64,000 nucleotides of DNA from Asterochloris sp. CNOR1 (Eukaryota; Chlorophyta; Trebouxiophyceae; Trebouxiales; Trebouxiaceae). Position 1 is the stretch's first letter, and every line of letters begins with the position of its first letter. Positions 5,765-61,890 of the stretch are shown here, piece after piece. The stretch covers positions 1,302,001 to 1,366,000 of the forward strand of contig OZ017757.1 of NCBI GenBank assembly GCA_963969365.1, written 5' to 3'. The notes under the pieces are model-generated. The model was given only the letters and a program-made list of their open reading frames with translations, did no database searches and was not told where the DNA came from. Both the position numbers and the translations under genes were made by a program.

Positions 5765-8700
5765 ATGCTTGGCAGGCGGCTGCAGGGGGTGCTCGCTCAC
5801 CATTTGTCACAGCTTGGACATCTGGTGGCCAGTCCTGAGTGGAGCCATGCAGGTAGGAGAGGGGCCTGCATGACCTCTGCGGTTGACTTTCTTGGACTTC
5901 CTGCCTTGCAGCAAATTCTGTTGACGCTCTCCGTAGGGGTGCCTCAATCTTGCCAACATGCTGCTTGTAAAGGGAGCCTGACAGAACCCGCCAGCACTGT
6001 CTCTGGACGTAGCCTGCTGCGGGCTGCACAGCGCCTGGCTGCCGCTGCCAGTCCTGCCGAGGAGCCCTTGACCAGCAGCGCAGAAGCTGGGCCTGCCAGT
6101 GCCGCTCAGGCGGGCCGCAGCGCCGATGCAACAGAGAGTGCAGAGTCCCCAGGTCAGCTTGTGCTGTTGAGGTCTGCCGCTGTGTGCGAGGTGCCACAGG
6201 CTCGCCCTGTGGAGCTGCCTGCTGAGCACAACAGGATGTGCAGCCTCCCCTGTGCTGTGCATGCTGCGTACCTGGCAGCTACAGCATGACTGCTTCGAGG
6301 GTCTGGCTCAAGACCGCATGCACTGCGCGTCCGTTGCAGGTGCCAGTCATGCTGCCACTCGTGCTGCCACTCGGACTGCCACCACATTCTGCATGCTGAC
6401 ACGCATGTGCTGATACAGGGGACCTCGGCAGCAGCGGTGGCAGCAGCAGCCACGGGACCAGCAGCCACAGGCGCTCAGATCCCAGGGTGGCCAAGGCAGC
6501 TGTCAACCTCAGCGACATGGTCACCACGTTCGAGTCGGGGCGCATGGCCCTGTTTGCCAATGGCAGCTGCCTCACCAAGGCTGGCAAGACCCACGTGCTG
6601 GCCACCGCCGCCTGCAGCCAGCTGCCCAACGACACGCCCTCCTTCCAGAGGGCCCGCTCCATGATTCAGGTGCAGCACTGCTACCTGGGGCGCAGATTTG
6701 TTGGTCTATGACCGACATGCCTTGTTGCAGAGGGCTTAGTCCGTGCTTGGGGATCTCCCCCGCTAGGAGGCAGTTGGGTGGGGAATTTTGGGTGAGGGCT
6801 GCAGGCACAAGCCTGGCGGTGCAGACCACGGTGTGGGCGGAGCTCAGAAAGAGGCTGCTCAACGGCAAGCATTGCTGCATTGAGCACACTGAGCCTCCAG
6901 GTCAGTGTTGCGCTTGACAGCTCACCCAGCCTGAGGTGCAGTGCGCCCATGCGCCATCTGTGGTGCCTACGACCCACAGAAGAGCCTGCATTGCCAGCAG
7001 TAATCGTGTTGCGATGAGGTTATGTGTCTTGGGTGCATGCTGCAGGCAAGATGTCACAGAACGCAGGCCAACCAGAACACAGACCAGCATGCTGCTATTG
7101 AGTCCACTGCCAATACCAGGGCATGTTGGCTGCAATGTAACGCACCCCGAATGGCACACCATGGGCAATGTGCCGTTCAGCTGAGCCTGCCGCGGCACAG
7201 CAGGCTGCCACCTCATCACATGCACCCTTTGCCGCGCATCAGATTGTCACCGCAGGATTGCGTGCGCTCTGTGCTGCACCAAAACCTGTACACCTGCAGC
7301 ACTCCTCTGCTGCACAGCAACTTCCACCATGCCAGGGTGCCACTCGTGCTGCACCGTGAGAGTCTGTGCACACAAAGCTGCTGGCTGCAGTTTGACTACC
7401 GGGAGCGAGCGCATGCCGTCGGCAAGATGCCGCGCAGCCGCACCCAGAAGGAGTTCAGCCACTCAGATCGGGAGGTGGCTGTCTCAGCTCTGATGGACCG
7501 GGCCTTCAGGCCCCTATTCCCTCCAGGGTTCAGCCGCTTCTGCCAGGTGAGGCCTGGCAGTGCATTGCTCCCAGCCCAGCTGGGAGGTACCCACCTTGGC
7601 CGTCACGCCGCTGTTGCCCCAAGGGTTCAGCCGCTGTTGCCAGGTGAGCCTTATTTGTGTGGCCCTGATGGGAGAGGGTCGAGTCAGCCCTCGATCTTGC
7701 CCTGTAAGCTCATGTTGGGGACTCACGTTTCCTGCCCCCACAGCAGTGCCCCTGCCCGCTGCTGCCTAGTCCCTGCAGCTGCCTCCAGCCCATGTGGCAG
7801 GTCAGCTCTCAGGGAGCTTGCCTGCAAGCCACTGTTTTCCCAGGGTGCAGCCGCTTCTGCTGGGCAAGCCCTGCTCGCTGCCTCTGCCGCTGTCTCTTGC
7901 AGGCTGCAGCAGCCTCTTGTTGGACACCTTACTGCAAGCTCTTGGTGAGGTGCACATGTAGTCAGCTGCTGGCAGATTATGCCTACGTAGGCTGGTACCC
8001 GCCAGAGCCTGCGAACAAGGTGCTGCAGGCCGCAAGCTGCTCTTACAGTGCCATTCTTGGTCCCAACAGCTCTAACAATAGCGTCCGCAGATAGCCAGAT
8101 CCACATTGTTGTGCTTGCTCAATGGACCTGTTCATGTATCAAGGCCCACAGCAGCCACGCTGTGATCTCTGCCACTAAGGTGTGCACGGACACGCGGCCT
8201 GTCCCTTGCCTGCGCCTGTCTGCTTTGCCCAGACATGTTCGTATGCCCAAGACAGCAATGCATGCCAGGATGCAGGGTACAGCAAGATTGACTAGTCCTG
8301 GACCGTCTGCTTTGCCCAGCCATGCTGGCATGCCCACCTCAACACCTGCCATGCTGCAGATCACCGCTAATGTGCTGTGCACCGATGGGCAGATCGATCC
8401 AGACGTGGTCGCCATAAACGCCGTCTCAGCTGCCCTGTCCATCTCCAACATTCCCTGGGCCGGGCCCCTGGCTGCTGTCAGGGTGACGAGGACTGAAATG
8501 GGTTCAGCTGATGGCACTCTGACGGCAGCTCCCACACTTGACGACCAGCGCTCCTCAGGGCTGAACCTGCTATATGTCGGCACAGCAGACAAGGCCTTGT
8601 TGGTGGACTTCCAGGTGAAGTGCGCAGGGGCCAGCTTTGGTTTGCACTGGAAATGCACTTTCTGAAATCTGGGGACAGCAGCAGCTAAAACGGTGAAGTG

Positions 8701-11700
8701 AGCTGAACCTGCCCGAAAACATGTGAGTCTGCTGTATGCTGACACATCGGACACGGCCTTGCTCAAGGACTTCCCTGTACACTGCTCAATGTGCAGGTTT
8801 GGTGACTGTGTGTGGGCTTGACGGTCACAGCTGCTGCACAATGGCTTGGCAACGAATCTTCTGTTGATAGGCTCTCACGTTGTTGTCCTGGCGGCGGGGC
8901 CAGTTTTGCTGCATCCCATACTGACCAGCCCAGCATCAGCCCTGCGGAGCCAGTCTCCAATCAAAGCGCTAACTCACTGTGGCGCTGTGCTGATGGGGCA
9001 GCAATGAGCTCTGTCCAGTTGGCATGCACTCCTTGCACCCATTTCTGCACTTTTGCACCAGTCAGGCAGAGCCCATCCAGGTAGCCTCACAGGCAGGGCG
9101 ATACACAGAGCCTCTTGCCGTCAGGGTGAGCCAGTGTTTGCAGTGATACATCCAGCAACGTCTGGCAAGGTTTAGCATGAACCCCCAGCAGCACGTTCCC
9201 CTGTGCACCAAGTGCTGGCGTGTTCCTTCTGCGCCTGCAGCTCCCCTGCAGGCCTGGCCAGACTGAGCATGCAGCAACCCCAACCCCCTCTTTCCTGAAG
9301 CATAGATAGATAAGAACAGCAACAGGGTGCACAATGCTTGCCTGCATGTCTGTGACACAGGTCCAGCATTCCCCTGGTCACATGCAGCGTGAAAGGCACC
9401 CCACCCCACCTTCCGCAGAAGTGCCTCAATAGACCTGTACCCTGTCTGCAGGGTGAGGAGGTGTTTGAGACCGAGCTCCAGCATGCCCTCAAGTTTGCGC
9501 ACAGCCAGGTCAAGCTGATCATCGCCGCTCAGCAGCAGCTGAGGGCCGAGGCTGGCCAGGAGCCCATGCGCGTAGAGCTGAGCGGGGCTGACCCCTCAGC
9601 AGCCCACAACGTGGAGGCCTATGCGCTCCCCGTGGTGCAGGAGGTCCTCAGCAACCCTGACAGCACCCCGGCCGAGCAGCTTGTGGGGCTGAGAGAGGCC
9701 CAGCAGCGCACTCTGGACCACCTGAAAGCTCGGGGCCGGTACCGACATGCGGTGAGCTTCAACGGTGACGTCAGGGTTTGTACACTCAGGGGGAGCACCT
9801 TCAAGTTTCCTTGAGCTGTTGGGACGACCTTCAGGGACCAATTTGACCTAGATCAGCCGCCTGTGGGCCTGAGAGTGGCGCGGCATACACACCGGACAAG
9901 TTGAAGGCTTGGGGCAGCTACCGCCATCCAGAGAGTCGCAGGCCATCACAACCGACCAGATGTGACTGCTTCACATTCTGCACAGAGCAGTGACGGAACA
10001 GCTGGCAGCGGCCATCCTCAGTCTCGCCCATGGACACCTCCACACTCGCAGCGCATGCAGTCCAGTTCTGGCCGGGCGCTTCTGGGTGCACCTTTGCCAT
10101 GAGCAGCCTGGAGACCTGGCCGTTCAGGACAGCTGGCATGTTTCTGTTACCTTGCATCACTGCTTGCCACTCACCAAGCGCCATGCATGTCTCAAGGCAC
10201 CTCCTGTTCAACACCTGGAAAGGGCTGCCTGTCTCTGCTGCCAACAGGGTGCTGTGACTGCGTGCAGCCTCTGCGCATCCCTGGCACCGGCTGCGCCTCC
10301 CAGGTTGACATAGACTACTGCTGGCCAGCCATCCAGGCAGCAGTGCTGCGCGACATGGTGCTGCGCCACAACCGGCGCCCCGATGGGCGGGGGCTCCATG
10401 ACCTGCGCACCAACAACTATGAGGTGGGGAACCCTCCATCGTCTAGTTTTGTGAGTGGGCAGGGTCTTCACGCATTGGGCACGAACGGCTATGAGGCAGG
10501 AATTTTTCAGGTGTGTGTTTGCTGCATGTCCGTGGTGCTGCCACAGAGGGCTTTCTGACGGATGGGCTGCCTGACTTGTGCGCCAACATCAAGCCTGAGA
10601 TGGGAGATTGGCTCGAACAATTTCTACACCATGTCTGTGTGACCCCAGCCCCAAAGCCTCGTGCACTGCTCAGCCCTGAACACCTGGCAGATTGCTCACA
10701 GGTCTGAGGCTCACAGCATTGGCCATTGTCTGTCCCGCACCTCTGCACCTGTCTGGCCATTGTCTATCCCGCACCTCTGCACCTGTCTGCACAACAGCCT
10801 TTAAGTTTGCTCTCAGTCCTGGCTGGCAGCTTGCAACAAGTGTCATGCAGGCATGCGACTTGACAGGCATGGTGCCCTGCTGCACGGTCCCAGGCATGGT
10901 GCCCTGTTGCACTGTTCCACCGCTGGCATTGCTGCCCATGGCTGCTGCAGAAGAAAAGCATCCCTATGGTGCACGGCTCCATGTGGGACCCATGGGCATC
11001 ACTCAAAGCCAGCGTGTGGCAGCCCCACCAGCTGCTGCAGGTGGACAGCATCCCTGCGGTGCAGGTGTTCACCTTAAACACCCAGGATCCCAAGCAAGAC
11101 CGGTCTCTAGCACTTCATGAGCATCGGCCTGGCTGCTGCAGGTCGACAGCATTCCAGTGGTGCACGGGTCCACCCTGAACACTCAGGGTAACACGCAGAG
11201 CTTGGTGACAGCCACAATCGGCGGTGACACAGCGTTCAAGTTTGTGGACTCACTCCACGAGCGCCCGCAACTGATGGTGCAGTACAGCGCTCGCACCTTT
11301 GCCAGCATTGAGGTGAGCCCCCATGCACTGTGAAAAAATCGCCAGCAGCCGTTTGAAATCAGTTCCCGGTTCGGCCTGGGCAACCTTTCCAGCACCAAGG
11401 TGAGCACCTCCAGATCTGGGAGTCTGAGGAGCCACAGGTGGCTACGTGATGCGCCCTCTGCAAGTACCCTCACGGATGCTGCTATGCAGCATGCGCATTT
11501 GTGCCAGCCTTGAGGTGGGCCCCTGTGCAGTGTGGGAAGTACTGTGATGCCTGTGTTGGGAAGTGTCATGTGACTGCCTGGCAAAGGAGTCAGGCTTTGT
11601 GCACAGACGGTGCAGTGCAGTGGTCACACCTGAGCTCTTCCAGTGAGCTCCTGAATGCTGAGTAACAGCACTGAGCTGAGACAGTCGTCCATGGCGTGCA

Positions 11701-14700
11701 GCACCAGCATGAACAGGGACACAGCTTTGTGCCCTTCTGCCAGCACCAAGAGAATGGTCCCCACAGGGAAGCCTTAGATGGCTGCCTTGGATTCACATCA
11801 GCCCTTTGCTCAGCTTGAACAGCAAGCAGGGCAGGGACATGAGCCTCCATACTGCCTGCACAGGCACACACTCTTGCTTCACAAGTAGCCCTTTGCCGCC
11901 CACCCTGCAAGAGGTTGCCACTTATATGTGGCCCCAGATCTGAGTGTTGCCCTGTACACAGCTGTCCCACCTTGTGTCGTGCAGAGTGCCAGCAAGCAGG
12001 CACGCAACATGAAGCCTGGTTCGCCTGCATGTGTCTCCATCTGTCTGATGCCCTGCCTGCAGAACGCCAGCAAGCGGGAACCTGACATAGTGCAGCGCCG
12101 CAGTGAGGCCCTGCTGGAAGGGTTCCTGGAGAAAGCCCTGGCCACAGTGTTCCCCTCGGAGCAGCAGTTCCCCTTCACAGCCAAGTTGAGCGCTGAGATG
12201 CTGGCCATCGATGGGGCGAGCGCCACTGCTGCTCTGGAGGGGGCCAGCCTGGCGCTCATGGATGCAGGCGTGCCCTCCCGCAGCAGGCATGCCAGCGACT
12301 TGGTAGCAGGTGCGCGACTGAGCCAGGCTTGCGCACTGAGGGGCATTGGGTGGCTGCTGGAGGATGCAGGGGCGCCGCTGCATAGCAGCCCTGCCATCAA
12401 TCTGTTGGTTGACCTGACCGTGAGACCAAGGCAACCTGCCAGTATGTGTGTGCGCTGATGGATGCAGGGTTTCCATCCTGCAGCATGTATGCCAGCAACC
12501 TGAGGTCAGCAATCTGGCCACGCAGTCCTGGCAAGCTGCTGCCTGAGCTGCTGGGCTCTCGCCTGCTCTGTCCGTGTTGCAGACCGTGTTCGTGAGCGCT
12601 GATCATTGCTCTGCACTGGGCCGGTGCTGTGCTGCTCAAGGCACCCCACTGCTCACTGCCATTTAGAAGACTTCTTGCTGACAGAGGCAGGATGCCCGTC
12701 TGCACTAGTTAGACATTTGCACTGCCTTAGGCGCGCAATCGGGCCTGCTGGCATGCAGTGTACAACACTTCCTTCTGGCAGTGATCAGGCTTCCACCTCT
12801 TCCCCCTGACACATGCATTGCTGCAGGCGTCCAGGTGGGCCTGCTGACAGACGTGCCCCAGCCCTACCTGTCAGGCATCATCGGCGGCAGCCCAGAGGTA
12901 GCCCAGTCCATTTCGCGTGCCTCGGCTTACATCGCCCGCCTGCCCGGCTTGGAACAGCAACACATCGCCAGCACAGCTCAGCCAGCAGAGGAAGGCGCTG
13001 CCAGGGCGTGGCTGGACGGTACAGCCAGGGGGCCTCCTGCAAGCCACCCCCTTGCTGCAGCTGCAGCTGCTGGCGACCACAAGGGTTTGGGAAACCCCTC
13101 GCCCCAGTCCTCCCACGAGTTCATGTTTGACACCACGGACCTTGAGGAGCAGCATGCTGACATGCTGCTAAGTGTTGCGGGCACAGTGCAGGGCCTGACG
13201 GCCCTGCAGATGCACGTGCGGGCCCAGGGGGGCATCGAGCTGCAGCACCTCCTTCGGGCACTGCAGCTGGCGCGCCCTGCCCGCCTCCAGAAGCTCAGGG
13301 CCATGGGCAATGTGGCTGCCAAGGTGATACAGCAGGCAGCAACACGGCACCAATTTCTTCAAGCTTCTGCTTGACACGTCAAAGTACATCTCCCGCACCC
13401 AGTGCGGGATGTCGGCCTGCCTCCTTGTAGAAGTGGGGTTTGTGGCCATCGTCTATCGATGCAGAGAAGTCAGGCCGCTTCAGGTGGGTACAGTGTGCTT
13501 GAGTGTGGAGCCTGGCCAGCCTGCCTTGCATTTCTCTTTGAGGGCTGTGCAACAGTGGCAGCAGTGGTGAAGCCCAGCATGGAGTGCATGCTGTCTCAGG
13601 CTGACAGCCTGGCACAAACAAGCTAAAGGACAGGTGAGGCTATGGCAGCAGTACAAGTGCTGACCAGTGCTGCAATCGGCCAGCTGCAGCTGCTCTGGAG
13701 TCGTCCTCTACGCAGCACCAGTTCAGGGCAGCCCAGCAAGGCAATGCGCGGGGGACAGGGTTTAGGGTATTAGGGCCGCTCCCCCAAAAGCTGCCTGCTG
13801 CGCTCAGATACCTGGCAGCTCAGCTCTGCTGACTGGCTCACGCAGCTGCGACCTTTGCGCAGCAACGCCAAGCGCTCGGCGCTGTGCCAGCTGACTGTAG
13901 GGCCCTGGGATGTGCTGCCCTGCCAGACTGTGAGGCAGCCCGCCTGGCTGGCTGCAGTGGGTGCAATTGGCCCTCCAACGCCCTGGTGCTGGCTGCAGCC
14001 AGAGACATTGCCCGCTCAGCCTCGCTGCCTGGCTGTTGCAGTTACGGGATCGGCAAGGCGACGCTGCCGCTCTGGTGAAGTTTCAGATCCCCAGCGAGCT
14101 GGTCGGGCGCCTCATAGGCACTCAGGGCAGTATTGTGCGGGGCCTGCAGGACAGCACAGGTGGGCCCCTGACTGGCTTGCGTTTTGGTGTGGCCTTCCTG
14201 GGTCTGTGTGTATGTGTGTGTGTGTTTGTGCTGGTGTGTCTCCATATGCAGCATGCTGCCCCTTTCCATGTTGTCATTGGTTGCCGTCTTCATGGCCCAT
14301 TCTTTCTCAGCCAGCTGCATGCAACACCTCTTGTTGAGCATCAACTGCACTTCTGCTGGTGTCTCTGGCCGCCTGCAGTCACCAAGCCACCCAGCAATGC
14401 AGCCCAACCTGCTTGGCACCCAAGTGCATCACTACGGCACATACCTGATCTAATTGGAAGGCGGGGGGTGCACCCAGTTGCAGGGTCTTGCAGATAGCCA
14501 GCGTGTGCAGGAGCGCAATGCAGTACGTCCCAGGTGTCTTGCAGCAGTGCCAGTTCTGTGCTCTCAGTGTGTCTTCTTGGGATGTAGGGGCCCTGCTCAC
14601 GATTGTGGAGCGGGATGGAGAGGACCATGCAGACGTCTACATCTACGGCCCTTCTGGGTACCAGTGCAAGCAGGCAGAGGTCAAAGCCAAGTCTGTCACT

Positions 14701-16191
14701 GGCATGGATGTCTCGGTGAGCAGCAGCGGGGATGCAGGGCTGCTGTCTCTGACACGCAACCTCTGGAGCAGCCTCTTCCACTGCACTGCTGCCCCAAAGT
14801 CCGGCGCCAAGGGTTCTGCTGGCCTAGATTTCTAGGTAGAGCACCACTGGTGGGGCATCTGGGGACTGCTGACTTGCACAAAGGCAGCAGAGAGGTGCCG
14901 TGGCTTGAAGACATGGTCCATCGGTAAGTGACTGGTCAATGCTGCATGCACTGCAAATCACCAGCCCAGCAGCTGCACCCAAGAGCTGAGGGCCGTTCTG
15001 ACTGGCAGAGCTGCCTGGCAGGTACAAAGCAGCAACCTGCCCGGAAGCAGGAATCTGTTGCAGAGCAGGCAGCCTCAGCAGGAGGTGGAGAAGAGTACTT
15101 TTGTCTGCCTGCCTGAGAGATCCATCGCAGCCGGGCACTGTTGCGACTGCAGTTTAACTGATTGCGGCAGGGAGAGGGAGGTGAGGTCACTGTCATGCAC
15201 GTGAGTCTCCTCATCCCCCCTTTTCCCCCACCCCTCTCCTCCCTGCTGCAGGAAAATCATTTGGGCACCTTTGCTGGCTGGACTGCAAGGTGGCCCCTCT
15301 TCTCACTGCTGCAGGAGAGTCGTTTGGGCACCTCTGTGCTGGCGGGACTGCAAGGGTGGGGGAGTGGACGCACATTTTGAGGACCTGGATAGCAGCAGGA
15401 CAAGGCTTTGACTGTAGATCAACTGACTGCAGGAGGGAGAGGTGGTTGAGGTCACCGTCACAGCCCTGAAGGACTATGGTGCGTTCGTTGAGCTGCCCAG
15501 CGGCAACAGCACCCTGCTGCACATCAGCGAACTGTCCTGGGAGAGGGTGAGCTGCCTGGTCTGATGGAGTGTACGCTGCACAATGTGAGCAACACCATCT
15601 TGGACAGCAGCAACCTCTATGAAACTGAGCCAACTCATCACCTGTTTGCACTAGTGAGGCATCACCGGGCTTGCCCTGAGGAATGCCTTCCGTGGCAGCT
15701 TGCCCAGCACAAATGGATGCCGGTGACTGCTCTGCTTCAAGCTTGAAGTGCACTGTGTGGGGTCATTTTGCATCATCAAGTTTGGCTGAAGAGCTTCACT
15801 GTCCTGGTTGCAGGTCAAGTCCATGGAGCAGCACCTGCAGCTGGGCCAGAAGCTGCATGTCAAGGTGATAGGGCGTGACAAAAAGGGCAACATCAGTGTG
15901 TCGCACAAGGTCCTCCTCCCGCGTGAAGCAGAAGCGGAGCGGGCCGGTGAAAAGCCGCCCAGGTCCCCGACATGGGAGCAGAGGAAAGTTGCGACGTCGC
16001 CTCCAGGCATTCCTGGCAGGCGCCCCTCAGGCATGCGCCTGCCATGGAGGCCATCTGTTGACAGGCAATATGCCGACAGGCCGCCCACTGAGAGGTCACC
16101 TGGTGTTGACAACAGTACTGCAAGGCTGCCCAACAGAAGACCTCGAACTGCCCCATTACATTCCCAGGAAACTCCACCTGCCTCTGATTGA
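5765..16191 (+). CDS. PNP: Polynucleotide phosphorylase (PNPase), probably organellar, with divergent second core
   Basis: Exonuclease of organelle RNA decay (phosphorolytic 3'-5' activity in the family). Exons: 5765-6152, 6419-6669, 7391-7546, 8360-8614, 9452-9751, 10304-10423, 11142-11312, 12063-12309, 12827-13323, 14042-14159, 14588-14715, 15433-15546, 15814-16191; 1040 residues with consistent phases. The N-terminus (about 1-150) has no PNPase homology and is Arg/Ala/Ser-rich, as expected of a transit peptide. First RNase-PH core about 152-350 (ESGRMALFANGSCLTKAGKT, FRPLFPPGF, AALSISNIPWAGPLAAVRV); helical linker 351-450; second core about 465-770 (RRPDGRGLHDL, GSTLNTQGNTQSLVTAT, ASLALMDAGVP); KH about 805-877 (GRLIGTQGSIVRGL); S1 about 878-950 (KDYGAFVELPSG, LLHISELSWER); basic tail. 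The second core lacks the expected catalytic residues, so it may be non-phosphorolytic. The first ATG after an in-frame stop was taken as start. Confidence 0.92.
7516..7870 (+). repeat. Echo copies of PNPase exon 3 end and its donor
   Basis: The exon 3 border (CAGGGTTCAGCCGCTTCTGC then CAGGTGAGG, ending 7546) recurs near 7618-7655 (AAGGGTTCAGCCGCTGTTGC then CAGGTGAGC) and, more decayed, near 7838-7870 (CAGGGTGCAGCCGCTTCTGC then TGGGCAAGC). Both copies lie in the following intron and keep part of the splice site. Confidence 0.85.
8558..8795 (+). repeat. Echo copy of PNPase exon 4 end
   Basis: The exon 4 end at 8558-8614 (ACAAGGCCTTGTTGGTGGAC, TTCC) is matched near 8705-8780 by ACACGGCCTTGCTCAAGGAC followed by TTCC. 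The copy is inside intron 4 and its donor has decayed. Confidence 0.8.
9675..9935 (+). repeat. Echo copy of PNPase exon 5 end
   Basis: The end of exon 5 (TGTGGGGCTGAGAG ... GGGGCCGGTACCGACAT) is echoed at about 9855-9935 (TGTGGGCCTGAGAG ... GGGGCAGCTACCGCCAT) in the next intron. Spacing between the two blocks is similar but the copy has lost the donor and the reading frame. Confidence 0.75.
10380..10502 (+). repeat. Echo copy of PNPase exon 6 end
   Basis: Exon 6 ends GGGCGGGGGCTCCATGACCT, then CAACTATGAGGTGGGG. About 70 bp downstream the intron holds GGGCAGGGTCTTCACGCATT, then CGGCTATGAGGCAGG. This is a short decayed duplicate spanning the exon-intron border. Confidence 0.65.
10932..11200 (+). 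repeat. Two upstream echo copies of PNPase exon 7 start
   Basis: The acceptor and first codons of exon 7 (GCTGCTGCAGGTCGACAGCA, then TTCC, at 11132) are preceded by two copies about 100 bp apart: near 11032 (GCTGCTGCAGGTGGACAGCA, then TCCC) and near 10941 (GCTGCTGCAGAAGAAAAGCA, then TCCC). The middle copy still has a good acceptor; its frame soon diverges. Phase and family alignment pick the last copy as the real exon. Confidence 0.85.
12245..12515 (+). repeat. Two downstream echo copies of PNPase exon 8 end
   Basis: The exon 8 end (CTCATGGATGCAGGCGTGCC, then CATGCCAGCGACTTGGTAGC) recurs in the next intron near 12353-12415 and near 12456-12515 (CTGATGGATGCAGGGTTTCC, then TATGCCAGCAACCTGAGGTC). 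The periodicity is roughly 100 bp. Confidence 0.8.
14205..14230 (+). repeat. (TG)n microsatellite
   Basis: Interrupted TG repeat in intron 10 of PNPase. Confidence 0.85.
15145..15470 (+). repeat. Echoes before PNPase exon 12
   Basis: The start of exon 12 (GGGAGAGGTGGTTGAGGTCA at 15435, then CCGTCA) is preceded by a copy near 15168 (GGGAGAGGGAGGTGAGGTCA, then CTGTCATG). Between them two further 60-bp tandem copies share CTGCTGCAGGA, TTTGGGCACCT and GGACTGCAAGG (about 15242 and 15305). Confidence 0.8.
16156..16160 (-). terminator. Candidate poly(A) signal TGTAA of IFT122
   Basis: TGTAA on the minus strand (TTACA on plus) 139 nt beyond the IFT122 stop. This is the usual poly(A) signal of chlorophyte algae. 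It lies inside the last coding exon of PNPase. Confidence 0.5.
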
Positions 16192-16298
16192 ACTCATTCT
16201 GACTGCCCCTTCCCTCTTGCTGTGTTGTCGCTTGCTGCAAACCTTGGGCATTTGCACAGCTTTCATTCCAATGGCCACTTATGAGCAATGACAGAAGT

Positions 16299-19200: not shown

Positions 19201-22200
19201 CAAACAACTGCTACCCAGTGTCAAGCAGGAAAGGGCTTGCTGCGCATCAGCACACTGGCCTGCTTCTAAGTCACCACATGACCTAGTCCAGCTGACTTGA
19301 CGTCAGCAAGAGTTGTGCGGGCTGACTGCAGCGTATGGATCAGAGCAAGGTGCTACGCAGCTGCCACACCTGCATGGCTGCACATGTGCTTGGATGTAGG
19401 GACTGGTCTTGCAGCAAGATGACCATGCTCCAGCAGGCTGCTGGGCAGCGGCCGTCCTGTGAAGGTTGCCTGGCCAGCCCAAGGGCAGGACACCGCCATT
19501 GGCAAGTAGCAATAGCGTAGGGCAAGGCCAAGCAGTCCAGAGGTGGCCCACCTGCCATGCGGGTGGCAGACGCAGCGACTGCAGGCGAGTGTGGGCCATG
19601 CGCGCAAGCTTGAACGCTCCAAGCTGCTCAGCCTGCTGAGCCAGGCAGTGCACCACTGCAGCCTGGCTGATTCCCTCGGGGGCTGGCTGTCCCCCGACCT
19701 GCAGGGAAGTCTGTGCTGGATACAACTGCTGGGCCAGGCAGGGCACCACAGCATTCTGCCTGGGCAGTAGTGGGGGCTGGCCCCATACAGCATGGACCAG
19801 AAAGATCTGCATTGGATAGGATGCCAGGTACTTCGTTACAGCATCGGCCAGGCAATGACAAGAGGCTGCCCTCAGGACATGTCTGCCTAGAGGGCAGCAG
19901 ATGCAAGAGCATGATTGAGGTGCAGCTGCCTGCTTCATTTCTGACCAGCAGGGAAGTGCGTCTCATGTGGGGCCGCCTTGAGCCTGCCAGGGGCCAGTCA
20001 TGAGCTGACATGGTGGAAGTACCTGCTGCGGCAGCGACAGCCCTCCCAGCTGGACAGGATGACTTCGCACCCTTTAGACTTATGCAGCATTGCGCAGCAT
20101 GCTGCAGGGCAAGCTTGCCCTGCTGCCCCAGGGCTCACCTGGAGCAGCCGCATGAGCAGGAATCTGGCCGCATTGAACAGCGTGGCCCCAAATATGCTGT
20201 GGAAGGGCTCGTGGGCTGCCTTGTGGATGAGGGCATAGGCCTGATACATCTCAGCCACTGCATACCGCTCAGCAAAGGCTGCCAGCAGGGCTGGGGCTTG
20301 GGTCCCAGCTGCAGGCCCTTGCACCTGCAGATCACCAGCAAACATGGGCCACAGCCTGGTGCTGAGCAAGGACCACCACTTGAGCGTAGGCCTGACCTCC
20401 AGCATCAGGTCGTGCGGTTCACATCAACAGGCCAAGCTCACTTGGTACAACCAGTGGGCGTCGGCGTCCACAACAACACAGACATGGCAAAGGTGGGACT
20501 GACACGCCATCACCGGCAGCTCCCTGCACCAGCTTGTCGGCTGGCGGCCCTTTCCTGAGAGGCTGGCCTGCTGTCAAAGCATGCAGTGGCTGCCTGCCAT
20601 TTGCCAGCAACAGTGCCTCCAGTACCTGCTGGTAGCATTGGCTTGCAACAGAGCAAAGCGCTGCTGCGCACAGCAACCTGCAGCAGCCTTAAGTACACAG
20701 GGTGGCCCTTTAACCTGTACTAAACTTGCACTTGCACTAACCAGGACCCACTTGCGACAGTGCCTCCATCGCCTGCTGGTGACAGTGACCCGCAGCCGCA
20801 GCAAAGCGCCGCTCTCGCACAGCAGCCTGCAGCAGGCGCTCCAGGATACGTGCCCCCTCAGCTGGGTGCCCCGCCTCCCTGCAGGGCGACGCACACTTTC
20901 AGCAGGACGGCAGCCAGGAGGCCGATCCTCCCTGCAGGGCACACAGAATGCCCTGCCTTGCCAATGTCCCTGTGAATTGCAAGGCCCAGCCTCCCTGCAG
21001 GGCAGAAGCATGAGTTTGCCCAAGGCTGGCAGTGAAATAAAGGCACAGCTTCCCTACAAGTGCGTTTCACTGCCTGATGCACTGACATCTGTAATCAGCA
21101 AGCTACTGGCACCAGCAGAACATGCAATGGTTTGATAGAGGCATGAGAAGATCGTGGTTGGCTGAAAAGCTGAAAAGCTGAGAAGCATCAGCCCAGATCA
21201 TGGTCTGGCGGCACGCTGTGCAGGTCACCCACTGGGGAGCAGACCACACAGTGACTGTCATGCAAATACTGCTGGCTGACTTGACAGGCTCTTGACCGCC
21301 AAGGCAGGCCGTGGACGCATCCAGTGGACAGTGCTGCTCAAACCAAAGCTGCAGTGCACACCTGGGTGTTCGTTCACCTGAAGGCCACCCATGCACAGTA
21401 CTGCTCTCACCAAAGCTGCAGTGCAAACTTGGGGCAGATACACAGAGGCCTGTCGTGGGCAGCACAGCTCACATCAGAGCTGCAGTGCAAACATGGGCGC
21501 TCACACGAAGGCCTGCCGTGCCTCGTCAAAGCGATCCTGCTGAGCCAGCCACTGGGCCCAGGGCAGGCAGACCACCTCCCGCAGGTGAGGCTGCTGCTGC
21601 AGCACTGCCCGCGCAGCCTCCCAGTCTTCCTGCTCCACTGCCAGCTCAGCAACAGACTACACAGGCACAAGGGAGCAGGGGAAGGGGTGAGGGGGGTGCT
21701 GCAGCAGCCTGCCACAGCACATGGAATGGCAGCTGGGCGGGCAGTTGGCATGCAGCAGCTGACTGCCAGGCAGCGACTATGGCAGCCGCAAGCTGCTTGT
21801 GCGCCTGCTCAGCAATGGTGCACACGCGCAGACAAGCCAGATAACAGATGGTAATCTGTAAGCTGATGGGAGCAGGGCCGTTGCTGAGTTTGCCAAGAGA
21901 GGCACGAATGCCGCCGGCAGCGGCTGCCCAGGACTGCTTGTCAGAGCCTGCTGCTGCTTCAGGCACTAGCCAAATGGATTGACCAATGCGTCAGGCACTC
22001 CACCTGCATCCTCAGTCCCCAACTTGGGCCTGTCCTGCAGCTGGACAGGCAGCTCGATCACCCCGCCCCTCACACACAAGCACCCTCTGCACAACAATGC
22101 TCCTGCAGAGGCCGCCCCACCTTCCAGTCTCCCAGCTTTACAAAGGCCTCTTTAGCGAATTGCAGCTGCCCTGCGCGCCGGAAGGCAGCTGCGCACATCT

Positions 22201-25200
22201 GCAGGGCAGTGGCATCTGCCCGCGCATCCACTTGACGCGCAACCAGGCTCAGCTTGTCCCACCAGCCGTGGCGGCTCAGGATGGCCACAGCCCGCTCAAT
22301 CTTGTGTGCCTGCAGGCACAGAGGGTTGCTTTTGCCCCAGCAGCCCTGGCGGTCCAGGGTGGCCGCTGCCTGCTCACTCATGTGGGCTTGCTTTGCTGAG
22401 GTGCACAATGGCAAGGTGCAAGTCTGTTATCATAATGAATGACAGTCAGCAGGGACCTTGGCAGGCCGCTGGCTGCTTAGCAACTGTCTGACTTTGATCT
22501 TGAGAGGTGCTGGCACCACTCGCTTTTCGCCACAATGACAGCATGTATGGCAGCAGCTGTCTGTCTAGACAGCCACAGGGTCAAATCGGCATAGCAGCAG
22601 ATCTGCTGCATGCAGAGGCCCTCAGCTGAGTCCAGGATCTGGACCATGAGTGGCAGCTAGAGTCCGTTCCGTTCCCCCATCGGCAATTGCCTGTGTGCTG
22701 CTGTCGGCAAAGGTCGCCTGCTGGGGGAAGTTGCCTCACATCAGGTGCTGATTAGAGCTGGTCATTGCGGCAGCAATGGCATGCCATTGGGGGGTCCGCA
22801 CCTGAAGATACATGTCAGCCGCTGCCTCATAGTCACGCATCTCCTCACTCCACTCTGCCTGCCTGTTGACAAAGTCCTGTACCACCGCAGAGGAGCCACC
22901 AGCAGCAGCGCTGGCACCTGCAGCAGCAGAAGGAGTGCCTCGGCCAGCCTCAGGCAGTCAGCAGCGGCACCGGTGCGTGCATGCAGCTGGAGGGCTGCTT
23001 TGTCCAGCTGCAGGCATGCAGCAGCAGCTTGCAGTGCCATGCACAATGCAGAGCTTGCTGCGCGCAAGACTACAGAGCGTCACGGGGCCCAAAGGGTGCA
23101 ATGTATTGAATGTGTGACCGACATCCAAAGAGTGTGTGTACATGCCCAACAAGCAGCAAGACATGCCTGTACCAAGCAGCACCATGGCCTGTGCTATGCT
23201 GCGCAGCAGCAGCGGCACATTTGTGCCAGCCGGTCTTGTGCTGCACAGTACCTGGACCGCCTTGCCTCAAAAAAGCAACACAGCAGAGGGGGTCCTGGCA
23301 TGAGGTGAAGAGCGCTCAGCCCTTGGCCTCTGCCAGGCAGTGGGCAGCATTTTTGGGCAGCAGCAAATATAAGTGCATGACTCCTCCTGCACAGGTCTCA
23401 CGCCAGGTGTCGCTTATGCTGTGCAGCATCCCGAGGGGCAGCAGCACCTGAGTTGGAACGCGCCCATGCCTCTGCCCAGGCCTTGGCCTCTGCAAACTGG
23501 CGCAGGTCAGTGAACATTTCCATTGCCCGCTCCACCTGCCCATGCTTAGAAAACATGCGGGCAGCCTCCTGGTACCGCCCCTGCAGGGACATAGCACAGG
23601 CCGGCGGTGAGCATGCCCTCATGGGGCAGGCCTCCTGGTAGCTTCCCTGTGGAGATGCAGCGCTCTGTACCAAAGGCAGGCCTTCGGCATGCATAGCTAC
23701 CATGTGGATATCTTTGTGCAGGGGCAGCAGAGACCTCTGCATTGTCAGGCCCTTAGAAGCCTCCTGGATAGGCCCCCTTACATGTTCACCTTGTCACAGC
23801 CAATGCACAGGCTGCAGCCTGCACACAAGCTTGTGGGGCAGCCTTTCGCGGTACCACAACAGGCACAGCACTGCTTAGTCTGAGAGCACTCAGGCACGAC
23901 AAAAGCTGCACACCTTGACCCTCTGGCATCTGGCAGTATGAGCAACTCTATGCAGACCATGCTCCCTCTGTCACACCTTCCAGACTCAACCCCCTGAGGC
24001 GTGGCTGTGCTAGTCAGCCTTGCAAGACAGTTCCTCAAAACTGCATGCATGCAGCCACCACCAATGGCTCTACAATCACACGCACACAAGACTCAGTACA
24101 ATGGTGCAGGCATCTGCGCACCTCATAGGCCAGGATCTCTGCCTGCATGATCCCATCAGGCGTGCCTGCCCGCCGGGAGTGCTCAAGCTTGTTAACCATC
24201 TCAACAGCCCGGGTATCCCTGACCCTGATAAGGGCTTTTCTGGCCACGTCCAGCTGTAGTGCCTGCAAGGAGCTGCGCGCCAGGCTGCGCCAGTCGCTCT
24301 CTGTCACGCCAAGACAGGCCACCTGCAGACAGAGCAATGCAAAGCAATCTAATCTCAGCTGTTTGGCAGACCACCTGATAAAGAGTACTTCAGTCACCCA
24401 GGCCGCCTGCAGACAACACCCCGTCAAGGCCTGCTGCAGCGACTTCCTATTGCTGCCACCCGACAGGTCAGACACAATGACAAACTTTAGCGAACTGTGA
24501 GGGCTGCCCCATGTGAGCATATGATATGCCTGGGGATGGAGTCTGGACAGAGCAGCAGGCCCAAGAGGAGGCAGCCTGATACCTCTCTCCTGCTCAGAGT
24601 AATCACATGGTTGCGTCAAGCATAGCGCCTTGCTAAAGAGTCGAGCTCACAATCTGCCTGGCAAGCCGCGCCGCTTAAGGCTGCCCAGGTGGAGCATCCT
24701 TGAGCTCAGGAATCCCCAATCATGATTGCACAGCCAGGCCTTGAAGGTGAGGACTTGCCTGGTAAGCCTTGTCCCACTCCAAGTTGCCCAGGTAGCGATG
24801 CATAGAGGCTGACTGTGGCATGTCCAGCGTCTGCATGCTGACTTGGTGCAGGCAGAAGACTTTGGACCCTGAGAAGCCCACCACAAAGCCCTGCAGCTTC
24901 TGCTGGTGCAGGGGGAAGTGGCCAGTCTTGGTGGACAGCTGACCGCCACCTGCAGCAGGGAGGTGGTTGTTGGCAGCTGCAGGTGAGGTTGCCGGCAGGG
25001 CCTGGAGCACCAAGAGATCCTTGGCAGCTGCAGAAGAGGCCTGTGAAGCTCACCTGCCACAAGCCCTGCAACTCCTGCTGGTGCAGAAGGCCAACTGCCA
25101 GAGCCGCGAGATGCTGCTGATGACCCACATCACTGTGCGGCTTCATTGACAAGCCCACCGGGTCTGTTCAAGTCAGCACCAGAGGTAGTCAGGCGCTTCT

Positions 25201-52898: not shown

Positions 52899-53146
52899 TG
52901 CTGCTCAGATCACCCAAATCATGCATGACAGGTCATGGACTGGTCAAACCTCTTTCTTTCTTTCTCCCTCTCGCTCCTTTCATTTGCTCTGGGCAGGCAG
53001 CCACTCGACACCTTGTCAGCATTTAAGCTGAGGCCTAACCGTGAGCTTCAGAACGTACAACCTTCAGAACAGCAACCCAGCACAAGCGAGCCTATGACCT
53101 CCACTCCTGAGATGAGCCTGCACAAGCAGCGCACACCACCAGAGCA
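52899..53146. promoter_or_regulatory. Shared divergent promoter, carboxypeptidase / ORAI-like gene
   Basis: Only 248 bp separate the two start codons. A pyrimidine tract (CTTTCTTTCTTTCTCCCTCT within 52951-52982) lies in the middle; it could be a promoter or 5' UTR element of the plus-strand gene. Confidence 0.5.
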
Positions 53147-56316: not shown

Positions 56317-56675
56317 CAATGGGGGCGCTGCAAGCGAAGGAGAAGCTGCTGCATTTATGCTGCTGACCATTGCATGCAGTGCCCATATGACCCTGTCTCA
56401 CTCCTGCACCACTTCCCAGTGTTGCTGCCGTATGCCCCGCCCAGTTGCATACGTCCCCCTTCCCAGTCTAGCAGCAAGCAATGATGCTCCTGAAACCACA
56501 TGTCACAAAGAAGAGCATTGCAAACGATCGAATGATGTGTTGATTTGTTGTTGGGGTCCTGATGAGCTGCGGAAGTCTGTGACAGCCGGGTACCTGTGAC
56601 AGCTGAGCTCTGGCTACTCGCAGACCGCTGTGCAGCGACGCCTTCTTCTGGTAGCTGCTCTCTTCGATCCACATC
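56317..56675. other. Intergenic between ORAI-like gene and KCS
   Basis: Same-strand neighbours, 359 bp apart. No TGTAA and no coding exon seen. It must hold the 3' end of one gene and the promoter of the next. Confidence 0.5.
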
Positions 56676-59600
56676 ATGGGCACTAAAGAGGTCACCAAAG
56701 TGCGCCATGCAGTGGGCATTGCCAACATCCCTGGTGAGCTCATCTGCTTCTTGGCTGGAAAAGTCAAGCCACACCACATGTGATGAGCGCACCGAGCTCC
56801 TTCTTTGGGCTGCAGACTTCAGGAGGGGGGATGTGGCTTTGAAGTATGTAAAGAGAGGCTACCATGTGCTCTGCACGCATGCCCTCACGCTGCTGCTGCT
56901 GCCTGTGGCAGTCACCACAACGGTGAGCCTCATGGGGTAGGCCCAATCAGAGGCAGCCCAGGGAGTGCTCTGGCACTGCATCTGCAGAGCGCAGCAGTCC
57001 AGGGCTCCTGGTCAAAGAAGTGATGCGGCAGCAGCTCCAGCATGACGTAAGGTGGCCTGCACACTTGCTGGGTGTGTCATCAGCAGTGCTGGCTTGACAG
57101 CATTGGCTCTGCCACTCTGTCTGTCCACCCTCAAGTCCATGCAGCCTGCATCATGTGTTGCCTGCAGGCCGAGCTTGCCAATTTGGTCAAGAGCGGGCAG
57201 CTCAAGGAGATGTGGCATGTGGCCTGCCAGACCCACCTCCAGTTCAACATGGTGAGCCACGCAGCAGGTCTCTGAGTGTTGCGCGGGTTCAGCCTGCCAC
57301 ACTGGCGAGCACTGCAATCTCGCTTGTGTGAGCAAAGCTCCTGGGCAATACAGCCCTCCGCAGCTTGGGCAGTGTGGCTTGCTAAGATCAGGTCTGCCAA
57401 GACCAACATGCTGCTTGAGCAACTGTGGCGGAAGGATAACCTCCTCTCCATGGTTGTGCAGCTTGTGCGGCCAATGATGCATCAAAACTGTGTCGGCTGC
57501 TTCGCTGCTCCTGAGCTGGCCTGCATGCTGCTGCAGGTCATGTTCCTGGCCTGCTGCCTGCTGCTGGTCCTGGTGGCAGTCACGTACGTGCTGACCAGAA
57601 AGAAGCCTGTGTACCTAGTTGATTACCACTGCTACAAGCCCCCGAACCGGTGAGCCTGAAGGGTGCCTGCTTAGGGCTGCTGCTCTGCGTCCCTCTGCTT
57701 GCAACGCCCTTCAGCTGCGCACCTCTGCTTGCTCCAGCCCCCGCCCCAGCACTCTGCCTTCACGCTGCTGTCGTCCCAAGTGTGCGCCGATCTGGTGCAT
57801 GTGTGCCTGAGCACTGCTGCTGCCCCGAGCTGTCCTGCCTGGTACCACGTCTCCCCGTCTGTGCTGATGCGGACCCCTTCTGTTGCCCCCCTGGTGCAGC
57901 ATGAAGGCAACGCGTCAAGCGTTCAAAGACGGCTCCCGAGCTAGTCAGGTGTGCACACCTCGCCCCCCACTGTGCTGACGCCTGCATGCAGTATGAAGAT
58001 GTCACGTGAGAGTTTTTCCGTCCTATCGCGGCATAGCCAGGTGTGATGCGCAGCTGGCCAGCCATGTGCATAGGCTTGCGAGTTGCTCAGCTTGCCAGCA
58101 GCGTGTGTGTGCATACCGAGTTCTGTGGATTCTGGCCCTGGGTCAGACCGCTTATTCAGCATGGTCTGCTGATGGCCTAGAGTGACCAGGCTCAGTGCCT
58201 GCCTCTAGCATTGGCGGAAGCATGCAGTTGTGTCAGCAAGTGTGTGACCCTGACAGTGTTGCAGCAAGGCGAGCAGGGCTCAGCCGTGACCTGGGGACCT
58301 GGTTAAGGCTGCCTGTGGTCCTGCAGATGTTCGATGAGCGAGCACTGGACTTCCAGGAGAAAATACTGGATCGCTCAGGGCTAGGAGATGACACTTACCT
58401 GCCGGATGGTGAGTGCTGGACGCTGCTGCCGCTGCTCATGAGCAGATCTGACGTCTGTACTGGAGCCATGCATGAGCCGTGTCAGTTTGCTTGAAGCCAT
58501 GTTGTGTCTGGGGCTTCCAAGGGTCTTGTAGCTACATCACAGGGCTGCACTGCTTGCAGTCTGCGGAGCATGGCGGGGACCCTCGATGCTGTCTGGGCTG
58601 ACTTTTACTGCACCAAGATGGGAAGCAGGCATGCCTCTCAAGGGTGGGCACTGACACGCTGGCTCCCCTTGTGCTGCAGCTGTTCAGGCGAGGCCCCCTC
58701 AGATCTCCATGCACGCTGCCAGGGAGGAAGCAGAGCTGGTACTTTTTGACTCCGTGGATGCCATCCTGCAGAAGAACAAGCTGAAGCCTAGTCAGGTGGG
58801 TTGTCCTGACAGTGACTTGCTTTGCTTGCCACGCTGTGGCTGCACAGGAGGCAAGTGGGTGCGAGAGGGTCCCTGCTTGCCTATGGTCACAGTCTTGTAA
58901 GGCCTGCGCAAACGCCAGGAGCTTCCTGGAATGTATCAGGGCAAGTTCTGTGGCAGTTGAACACAGCCCTCAGCAGCTTGCAGCCACCGCTGCTGGCAGC
59001 ACAGGGCAACCCTCACGTGCTCTGTGACTGCACCAGCAGCCCTCCCGCCGACTCTGGGGCATGCAGCTGACCTGCACAGGTCACGTGCGCCTGCATGCAC
59101 CCTGCCACCCCTGACGCTCTGTGCCCTTCCTGCAGATAGACATACTGGTGGTGAACTGCAGCCTGTTCAACCCCACCCCCTCCCTCTCCTCCATGATCAT
59201 CAACCACTTCAAGATGCGCTCCAACATCATCTCGTACAATCTGGCCGGCATGGGCTGCTCAGCTGGTGTCATCGCCATCAATCTTGCAAAGGAGTTGCTG
59301 CAGGTGAGCCAGAAAACCAGAGGGGGTTCTTTGAGCTTTTGGTACTGAGAACACGAGAGGGGCGTACTGGTGCTGGTGGCTTGTCAGCCTGTGTCATGCC
59401 ATCTATGTAGCTGAGGAGTCGATGCAGGTCAGGTTGCTGTGCCAGAAGATTAGGGTTGGTCCTTGTGCGGGGGCCGGGTATAAGCAACTGCTCACCTGGT
59501 GTGATGGCTCAATAGCTCGCCAGGAAGTGGGTGCAGGCAAGGCTGCATTCAAGGCTCTGCCTTGGTGCTTGCTGCTGCGCTTCATAGGCTACCAATGGAA

Positions 59601-61890
59601 GCCTGCAGCCCAGGATGAGCCTCCGCTTCCAGCTCTTACAGACTGGCATACAGCTGGGTCACTGTCAAGGCACAGTGCAGCATGTCAAGACATTGAAGCG
59701 TTCATAGCCTCAGTGTGGCAGTCTCAAGCAAGCCCGTATGATGAATGTATGCTGGTTATGGCAAGCTTGCTCCAGCTGACTGCAACAGCCCCAGATAGCC
59801 TGCTGCACTGCTTGCAGGTTTACCCCAACAGCAATGCCATTGTCGTCAGCACTGAGAACATCACCCAGAACTGGTATTTCGGCAACGAGCGCTCCATGCT
59901 CATCCCCAACTGCCTCTTCCGCGTCGGCGGCGCCTGCATGCTGCTCAGCAACAAGTAAGCACCATGCAATGGCTCAGTTCTTGCAGTTTGTTCCTGGACC
60001 TGCATTCAACACTCTGCCAGGTGCTGCCTGTGCACCGGCTGTGCTTGCTGCTCAGCAGCAAGCAAAGTCTCGTGCAGTAGCCCTTGTCATGCAGGGCCAG
60101 CATGTGCACAGGCCGGGACAGGCAGGAGTGTCAAGTCTCACAGAGGCAGAGAGTGCTGTGGGTCCCTCAAGTGGCTCTGTGCCACAGCTGTGCAGGCCTT
60201 CTTTATTGGGTGCAGACAAAGATACCCATTGCTCAATTGAACTGCGCACCACTGATGCAGGCGCCGAGACTACTGGCGTGCAAAATATGAGCTGCTCCAT
60301 GTGGTGCGCACCCACATGGGCTCAGACGATGCCAACTATGGCTGCGTCTACCAACGCGAGGACGAGACTGGCCGTGTGGGGGTGCACCTGTCCAAGGACC
60401 TCATGTCTGTGGCTGGGCATGCGCTTAAGGCCAACATCACAACCCTGGGCCCCCTGGTGCTGCCCATCAGCGAGCAGCTGCTGTTCTTCGTCAGTCTGGT
60501 GGCCCGCAAGGTGGGCTTTGGCGATCAGGGGTGAAGCTCAATGCCCAGCAGCAAGCAGGCTATTGTGTGTCCCAAACATCTTATGATGTAAAACAGCCTG
60601 TCGTGACGAGCCTGGGCCGCCTGGTGGTGCCCCTTCAGCGAGCAGCTGCTGTTCTTTACAAACCTGGATGCCTACCAGGCGGGTTAGGGGCACATTCCTC
60701 AGCTGGGCATTGCTTTCTGATGTTCTCTGTGCATTATGCTGACTGCATATGCCTGGGCAGGGGATTGGCCATGGCAGACAAGGCTGCCTATCCTCCCACC
60801 CCTTCTGAGGTGCAGCAGCAGCACATCCCAGGGCAAGCAGCTCCAGTCACACCCTCTCAGGGTGGCCTTTGATCACAACTTCTACTTCTAAGCTGGCCCC
60901 TGATCTTGATCATTACTCGGTCCTTGCAGGTCTTCAAGATCAAGACCCGCAGCTACATCCCCGACTTCAAGCTGGCTTTTGAGCACTTTTGCATTCACAC
61001 CGGCGGGCGTGGTGTGATTGAGGAGATAGAGAAGCAGCTGCAGCTGGCGCCCAACCATGTGCAGGCCAGCAAGGACACCCTGTGGCGATATGGCAACACC
61101 TCTTCCTCTTCAATCTGGTGGGCCAGCATGAAAAGTCAGGGGTTACAGAAGCCACTTCTGTCAGGGGATTGATGGCTCTGCAGAAGGGCTGGTGCTGCCT
61201 GTGGATTGCAATGAAAGCCTGTGGCAAGATGGCAGCACCTCTCCATCTTTCATTCAAAAGCAAGATTCGTCATGACAGTCAGTGGTGTACTCGCCCTGGA
61301 TGATGGCTGGGGCTTCTGGGTGTGGCAAAAAGGCGTTGGCCGTCTATGACATTGTACCTACTGATAGGTGGTGCAGTACTTTCGGTGACATGCAGCACAT
61401 GCTCCTGAATGTGGTGGGCAGTGGAGGCCACCTTGCCGCTCTTATTGAGTGTCTGGGGCTGCTATCTGTAGCATACTGATTTTAACATGCTGATGCACCC
61501 TGTGGAGGCTGGTGGCAGAGACATTGTGCAATCAGCTTTGGTTGAGAGCACCTCGTTGGCTCAATGGGCTCTCCTGATTGTTCGTTGGCCAGGGATGATT
61601 TGGGGCAAGGCTCAGGCCTGCAGGCAGGTTCCTTGCACCGTCCTGGCTAGCCAACAGCGCCTGTCATGTCTTTTGCCATTGGTGCTTCAACAGAGGCTCA
61701 GCTGATGATTCCTTTGATCCATCGCAGGTATGTTCTCTCCAATATCGAGAGCACCCAGGGCGTACGCAAGGGTGACCGTGTGTGGCAGATTGCCTTCGGC
61801 AGTGGCTTCAAATGCAACAGCGCCGTCTGGCGATCCCTGCGCAACAATAGGGATGTCCATGAAGCATGGATTGAGGACACAGCTGTCTGA
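56676..61890 (+). CDS. KCS: 3-ketoacyl-CoA synthase (FAE1/KCS type)
   Basis: ER condensing enzyme of very-long-chain fatty acid elongation (acyl-CoA plus malonyl-CoA). Twelve exons: 56676-56733, 56816-56922, 57168-57251, 57537-57649, 57900-57948, 58327-58408, 58680-58795, 59136-59303, 59818-59954, 60261-60510, 60930-61117, 61728-61890; 504 residues, the plant length. Two N-terminal membrane segments ([32 protein letters not shown]), then [39 protein letters not shown]. Catalytic triad complete: Cys about 244 (GMGCSAG), His about 411 (HFCIHTGGR), Asn about 444 (RYGNTSSSS). C-terminal [20 protein letters not shown] is intact. A 49-nt exon ([16 protein letters not shown]) was found by phase matching. 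It is convergent with the next gene, 187 bp between stops. Confidence 0.97.
57888..58062 (+). repeat. Echo of KCS mini-exon 5
   Basis: The 49-nt exon with its acceptor and donor (GGTGCAGCATGAAGGCAACG ... CTAGTCAGGTGTGC) is followed about 85 bp later by a whole decayed copy (CATGCAGTATGAAGATGTCA ... ATAGCCAGGTGTGATG). Both splice sites are still recognisable in the copy; it contains an in-frame stop. Confidence 0.8.
60440..60695 (+). repeat. Echo of KCS exon 10 end
   Basis: The end of exon 10 (CCTGGGCCCCCTGGTGCTGC, CATCAGCGAGCAGCTGCTGT, TCTTC) recurs in the next intron at about 60610-60660 (CCTGGGCCGCCTGGTGGTGC, CTTCAGCGAGCAGCTGCTGT, TCTTT). The copy is one of the least decayed in the window. 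Confidence 0.92.
61080..61255 (+). repeat. Echo of KCS exon 11 end
   Basis: GTGGCGATATGGCAACACCT then CTTCCTCTTCAATC (end of exon 11, near 61082) is matched near 61221 by GTGGCAAGATGGCAGCACCT then CTCCATCTTTCATTC in the intron. Confidence 0.85.

Follow-up and report, generated by a model that had tools for sequence, protein, structure and literature searches.

Introns of the green alga Asterochloris sp. CNOR1 carry decayed copies of the ends of the exons that adjoin them. We refer to these copies as exon echoes, and analysed them in a stretch of 64,000 nucleotides of contig OZ017757.1 (C12:1302001-1366000; hereafter the window) and in additional sequence from the same genome. The best reading of the data is that local duplication is general and not aimed at exon borders, echoes being those of its products that touch an exon: across the 314 kb that were read, direct duplicates of approximately 50-80 nt, mostly from within 200 bp, are found at many sites, without strong preference for exons, introns or their borders. 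Most pairs are old, and copying was much more active in the past than it has been recently. We consider it probable that the copies stem from past local copying of the DNA-break-repair kind, tolerated where splicing removes the surplus. How introns acquire their length is poorly understood; exon echoes preserve, like fossils, a trace of one way in which introns can grow.

The 314 kb comprise the window, 200 kb of flanks (C12) and 50 kb of contig C1, approximately 0.6% of a genome of 56.4 Mb in 21 contigs. Gene models were produced by a small gene finder self-trained on these 314 kb, and splicing is that predicted from sequence. The gene finder converged on the donor AG/GTGAG and the acceptor TGCAG/G (the slash marks the exon border); the acceptor consensus of the trained model, (C)TGCAG/G, is very strong in this sample (T 0.87, G 0.94, C 0.97). 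Several models agree with known proteins. Residues 1-991 of the 1221 in the IFT122 model align nearly throughout with solved IFT122, the PNPase model aligns in four blocks with the sequence of a solved structure, and parts of the KCS, ataxin-2, UBC and carboxypeptidase models match Pfam; the exons of 14-3-3 were located by family search. The gene finder's calls also include small exons that are false. Some of these coincide with echoes, as in PNPase and GGPP synthase, and counts that use the gene models are biased as a result.

To define the frequency of echoes, the last and the first 80 bp of exons were compared with their own intron, a score of at least 16 being taken as a match. The test set was made up of the 366 introns of 120-1500 bp whose flanking predicted exons both measure at least 45 bp. 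A copy of the adjoining exon end is present in 57 of these introns: 29 on the donor side and 29 on the acceptor side, with one intron carrying both. The equal numbers bear out a claim of the sequence-only reading of the window, namely that echoes occur at both ends of exons. Length-matched random other introns gave 1.07 (donor) and 1.27 (acceptor) matches per set, same-strand introns no more than 10 kb away gave 1.75 and 0.92, and the reverse complement compared to the own intron gave 2 and 2. Thus exon-to-own-intron matches far exceed exon-to-other-intron matches (29 and 29 of 366 versus approximately 1-2 per side), which is the comparison that the sequence-only reading had itself proposed as decisive.

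Echoes are present in all four genes for which they had been claimed outright (PNPase, IFT122, ataxin-2 and KCS). The clearest begin at 22254, 25393, 27697 and 28327 in IFT122, at 7501, 8562, 11031 and 11253 in PNPase, and at 59253 in KCS. In 14-3-3, where echoes had been thought probable, none was found in the four introns tested; the region holds one weak pair (score 17, distance 612). The distance between copies had been described as usually 70-150 bp, which fits 64 of the 128 exon-intron pairs; their median distance is 131.5.

Local direct duplicates in all sequence classes

Exon ends are not alone in being copied. An ungapped scan of the 314 kb at offsets of 20-420 recovered 313 local direct repeats with a score of at least 16, compared to 13 and 14 at control offsets; with a score of at least 25 there are 93, compared to 0 and 2. 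Contig C1 alone (offsets 20-300) contains 18, against 1 and 0. Pair density per offset drops beyond approximately 200, and similarity within the sample sinks to near the control level within a few kb. Local inverted repeats showed no excess over the full 314 kb (16 versus 12 in the control). The homologous stretches have a median length of 62 nt (quartiles 49.5 and 80), and detected local duplicates amount to 7.7% of intron bases in the sample, both copies counted.

The sequence-only reading had placed the process in introns and across splice junctions. Ratios of observed to expected aligned bases are close to one for exon-intron (1.07), intron-intron (1.02), exon-exon (1.05) and intergenic (1.04) pairs. 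As a further null model, 311 merged pairs were rotated along their contigs and classed according to the location of each copy: exon (E), intron (I), intergenic (G) or junction-spanning (J), such that in an IJ pair one copy spans a junction and the other is intronic. The counts, observed versus null, are 76 versus 67.8 for EI, 19 versus 19.2 for EJ, 87 versus 101.3 for II, 26 versus 31.7 for EE and 22 versus 18.7 for GG. With the classes fitting availability, and an excess of junction-containing pairs (considered below) that is only modest, we do not uphold a process specific to introns or splice junctions.

The copies had also been termed tandem. In the strict sense this is true of a minority, and most pairs are spaced. 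Among 152 pairs with a score of at least 20, 27 are fully tandem (for example at 10720 and 10864). Spacers were counted for the non-tandem pairs at this score: of 99 with a period of up to 250, 21 have a spacer of no more than 10 nt (for example at 15231 and 38104), 24 a spacer of 11-30 nt and 54 a longer one, while 26 more pairs have longer periods. Pairs that share copies with no other pair include 14 tandem pairs and 54 others (period up to 250), in which the spacer is up to 10 nt in 9, 11-30 nt in 17 and longer in 28. Up to a divergence of 0.4, recovery of simulated tandem duplicates extended over 0.84-0.98 of their period, dropping as low as 0.67 in the setting with the greatest age and many indels. 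The observed coverage is 0.82, 0.65 and 0.47 for periods of 60-90, 90-130 and 130-200, respectively (0.80, 0.73 and 0.31 for two-copy pairs), which rules out full tandem duplication as the only process. The two marks of patch-type break repair, copies in direct orientation from within approximately 200 bp and a mixture of tandem, partly tandem and spaced arrangements, are both found here.

Decay and age of the copies

Exon-exon pairs favor whole-codon periods (18/5/3 by period modulo 3); EI and II periods are even (27/26/23 and 27/32/28). The rate of mismatch between exon and intron copies is nearly even over the three codon positions (0.223, 0.195 and 0.251). Of 38 donor copies, 20 retain the splice dinucleotide, and so do 26 of 44 acceptor copies, where local identity predicts 19.0 and 24.8, respectively; splice signals in intronic copies seem neither preserved nor purged. 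The intronic copies look neutral, with no clear mark of coding or splicing constraint. Mismatches, EI periods and the loss of splice dinucleotides, all near neutral, thus accord with the earlier proposal that sequence was duplicated locally and that the copy in the intron then decayed.

High-identity pairs are rare. Pairs of at least 40 nt with an identity of at least 0.85 number 7 of 82 among the II, EI and IJ classes and 3 of 45 among the others; a simulation with a constant rate of duplication placed 304 of 606 detected pairs at this level. Although this simple simulation used a single substitution model and a single indel rate, the gap to observation is large. At an identity of at least 0.90 there are 3 of 141 ungapped segments of at least 40 nt, 4 of 108 gapped pairs (score of at least 20) and, outside this gapped count, 3 of 27 fully tandem pairs. 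Loss of young copies cannot give an age distribution of this shape, because survival only declines with age; the past rate must therefore have been higher. Accordingly, the notion that introns in this genome are still expanding is not sustained. Repeat-induced mutation as a cause of the few young pairs is not favored: transitions account for only 48-51% of mismatches. Exon echoes are unusual markers in this respect, because selection holds one copy, allowing the decay of the other to be both timed and polarised.

Echoes at individual loci

Coordinates of echoes and related duplicates in the window are given in the table below. In PNPase, three of seven tested introns carry an echo. The pair at 7501/7598 and the triplet at 10939/11031/11132 are additional to these three, the adjoining predicted exons being outside the length limits of the test or themselves echoes; the copies at 10939 and 11031 were called as exons by the gene finder, without homology support. 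IFT122 has eight echoes at 19 introns, and ataxin-2, the model of which contains SM-ATX and LsmAD domains (Pfam), has an echo in two of nine tested introns. Carboxypeptidase has an echo in one of four introns, the two tested introns of UBC have none, and two echoes were found at two introns of an unnamed gene located at 62-64 kb. Upstream of KCS, at 53147-55579 on the + strand, a protein is predicted in which Pfam recognises an Orai-1 domain (CRAC calcium channel). The gene finder fused this gene with KCS; the merged model has echoes in two of ten introns, one of which (59303) is in KCS.

Exon echoes and related local duplicates in the window (echo positions, where given separately, are under Remarks; percentages are identities between copies)
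Feature	Position	Strand	Identity	Remarks
PNPase exon end and donor (source copy)	7501..7551	+		exon within PNPase homology
Echo of 7501..7551 within intron	7598..7648	+	82% over 51 nt	GTGAG kept
Partial second echo of 7501..7551	7840-7873	+		
PNPase exon end across donor	8562..8641	+	70%	echo 8724-8803
PNPase exon end	9675..9756	+		donor-side echo at offset ~180; gapped score 34 for exon end at 9751
PNPase, three copies of acceptor and exon start	10939..11197	+		copies from 10939, 11031 and 11132; last copy is the homology-supported exon
PNPase exon end across donor	11253..11332	+	72%	echo 11456-11534
PNPase exon segment, 7 nt from exon end	12252..12302	+	80%	echo 12452-12502
Near-tandem pair with acceptor of small predicted exon	15231..15355	+	88%	period 63 nt, 3 nt between copies
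IFT122 acceptor and exon start, upstream echo	19633..19796	-	76%	acceptor and exon start 19633-19707; exon in IFT122 homology
IFT122 exon end, downstream intronic echo	20607..20835	-	81%	exon end 20754-20835, echo 20607-20686
Intron-only triplicate	21312..21497	-		spacings 67 and 64
IFT122 acceptor and exon start, upstream echo	22254..22391	-	78%	acceptor of echo lost; exon in IFT122 homology
IFT122 acceptor and exon start, upstream echo	25393..25571	-	82%	acceptor kept; exon in IFT122 homology
IFT122 acceptor and exon start, upstream echo	27697..27886	-	74%	acceptor lost; exon in IFT122 homology
IFT122 acceptor and exon start, upstream echo	28327..28494	-	76%	third partial copy 28519-28544; exon in IFT122 homology
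Ataxin-2 exon end across donor, echo	32093..32551	+	67%	exon end 32093-32287, echo 32356-32551
Ataxin-2 acceptor and exon start, upstream echo	33088..33303	+	74%	acceptor and exon start 33204-33303, echo 33088-33187
Duplicate almost wholly intronic	38104..38240	+	88%	period 71; same process without exon end
KCS exon end and donor, echo	59253..59432	+	78%	exon end and donor 59253-59308, echo 59378-59432; FAE1_CUT1_RppA domain crosses junction
Unnamed gene, exon end and donor, copy in preceding intron	62824..62975	-	69%	one of six in-register cases
Unnamed gene (62-64 kb), acceptor and exon start, upstream echo	63132..63297	-	76%	

In the left flank, a single intron of the gene for GGPP synthase (L010, about 1,540-2,835) contains three echoes: two derive from the end of the upstream exon, and the third from the start of the downstream exon. 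The echo at a distance of 229 is 44% identical over 105 columns (a merged ungapped offset that includes clearly similar stretches), that at a distance of 399 is 74% identical over 84 nt and keeps CAGGTG, and the echo of the next exon start is 67% identical over 48 nt.

Repeated units of a different nature are present at 49-1170 of the window on the - strand. They are spaced by approximately 180-550 bp, one stretch being 93% alike, and the predicted protein has repeats such as AAALPELAVAVAAEE; they probably reflect a protein repeat rather than echoes.

Origin of the copies and known systems

Local repair of DNA breaks, with fill-in or copying from nearby sequence, would generate copies of the kind described. 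A copy containing an exon end would be harmless for as long as the original splice site stays in use: with the original donor or acceptor still used, the mRNA would stay as it was while the intron gained the length of the insert. That echoes look centred on exons may be a consequence of the slow change of the exon side, which would keep exon copies recognisable for longer.

Several results weigh against this account, the break-repair component of which is something that we infer. Border-spanning homology is rarer than plain tandem duplication predicts. For hits picked by their exon side only, mean identity on the intron side is 0.409, compared to 0.351 for random sequence, and intron-side homology is found in 8 of 40 (null approximately 5%), one of which, with an identity of 1.0, may be a self-overlap artefact. 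In simulations, border-spanning tandem duplication gave 42-48% at a divergence of 0.25-0.30 per lineage and 65-83% if younger; exon-bounded copying gave 3-4%. The observed value lies between the two and therefore fits short, spaced copies with randomly placed ends, and some echoes could be the product of exon-bounded copying. Junction-containing pairs exceed the rotation null modestly (IJ 52 versus 40.4, P 0.044; JJ 21 versus 10.0, P 0.001), probably in part because exon copies remain recognisable longer and because echoes were called as exons. Mixed intergenic-genic pairs fall below expectation, both in aligned bases (0.56 and 0.33 of expected) and under rotation (EG 4 versus 10.7, GI 4 versus 8.0, GJ 0 versus 3.3). 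IJ pairs are biased toward whole-codon periods (26/13/13), for which we have no explanation. The density of local duplicates, moreover, is uneven: C12 has 0.94 pairs per kb and C1 has 0.34, an approximately threefold difference, and the density varies among 10-kb bins of C12 (variance/mean 3.0), implying that the process, or the survival of copies, is uneven.

A rival reading links duplication to splice junctions or to the birth of introns: an exon segment bearing AG/GT would have undergone tandem duplication, its copy turning into an intron or enlarging one. In-register alignment of the donor region with the acceptor region, seen in 6 of 504 introns compared to 0 of 2520 random pairings (score of at least 14), speaks for such a link, together with the modest junction excess. 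The class frequencies, however, are as expected without targeting, and the only one of the six cases checked by homology, that of GGPP synthase, rests on a false exon. Its best homologue is without the 58 residues modelled between LAFQ and VVDD and passes directly from LLFQ to VVDDILD; an echo of the neighbouring exon end makes up part of these 58 residues, and the apparent intron lies within the real one. We regard a link to junctions or intron birth as unlikely. Exon-bounded copying, for example from spliced RNA, could have placed exon ends in neighbouring introns, and would explain why homology is longer on the exon side (median 32 versus 14 nt; exon longer in 85 of 129) and why intron-side homology is rarer than tandem simulations predict. 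It is very unlikely, given that intron-intron and intergenic duplicates occur at their expected frequency and that 8 of 40 copies run on into the intron.

The possibility that echoes are functional, mutually exclusive exons draws on the retention of splice sites by some echoes, on those in PNPase and GGPP synthase that fooled the gene finder, and on the whole-codon periods of 26 of 52 IJ pairs, the sole result contrary to the general absence of two coding copies with conserved frame and splice sites. Whole-codon periods in only 27 of 76 EI pairs, mismatches across all codon positions and the approximately neutral loss of splice dinucleotides render it highly improbable. Repeated sequences within introns might also suggest a dispersed intron-making element, an introner or other transposon. 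Three stretches were searched against the entire 56.4 Mb and, at the sensitivity of the search, each was found at its own locus only: 7547-8359 matched itself and the exon end at 7501..7551, the 1-kb query 20000-21000, which spans an IFT122 echo, matched itself, and so did 27203-27548, an IFT122 intron without a listed echo (the other two are echo-bearing). Near-identical introns across genes, the hallmark of introners, were thus not seen for these three stretches, and with similarity falling to near control level within a few kb a dispersed element is scarcely credible. Lastly, the strong TGCAG acceptor motif and GC-rich sequence yield short chance matches; low-complexity or composition noise as the source of the pattern can nevertheless be dismissed for practical purposes, refuted as it is by the random-intron, nearby-intron, reverse-complement and distant-offset controls. 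Local copying, tolerated in introns, remains the reading that we favor.

The sequence-only reading knew of no description of this as a general mode of intron growth. The general idea has precedents (PMC3443670, PMC4974935); a description of genome-wide exon echoes was not found. Titles and abstract openings, in a literature search with most subscription journals outside its coverage, mentioned neither genome-wide exon echoes nor algal introns strewn with copies of exon ends. The type of mutation is known; its density, measured here in one genome, its age and the exon echoes may be new for an alga. One practical implication is that local duplicates lead gene prediction to false exons, as in PNPase and GGPP synthase.

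The relatives of Chlamydomonas known as core-Reinhardtinia, a group other than that of the present alga, have conspicuously long introns without the usual peak of short introns, and PMC8226300 considers the driver of length likely to be ancient. Among introns of our 314 kb sample that have exons of at least 45 bp on both sides, 15% are shorter than 110 bp and the median is 237. It is conceivable, though we think it doubtful, that long chlorophyte introns were built largely by an ancient and now faded wave of short-range copying, of which echoes would be a datable record, and which would explain the lack of crowding at minimal length.

Tandem duplication is established in principle as a source of introns (PMC3443670, PMC2891723). 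The alga resembles the tandem genomic duplication model in that duplication is local, within genes, and the surplus copy is spliced out; it differs in that introns already in place seem to have lengthened, without a demonstrable new intron. In the potato RdRp gene a duplication crosses an intron-exon border, and the same gene has an 83 bp duplication inside an intron (PMC4974935). There, as here, intron-exon structure was copied beside the original, but potato RdRp is a single young case with a new intron, whereas the alga has many old cases. In human and mouse cells, fill-in by Pol alpha-primase at breaks has been linked to small tandem duplications (PMC8355091), which makes it a possible biochemical route to short direct duplicates, known from those cells. 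In rice, insertions of 10-1000 bp ascribed to patch-mediated break repair can be tandem, partly tandem or non-tandem, and copy sequence that lies no more than 200 bp from a break (Vaughn & Bennetzen 2014, as reviewed in PMC7407515). The algal duplicates are like these patch insertions in size range, in having sources within approximately 200 bp and in being spaced as well as tandem; unlike them, they are old and decayed, are counted in one genome and appear as exon echoes.

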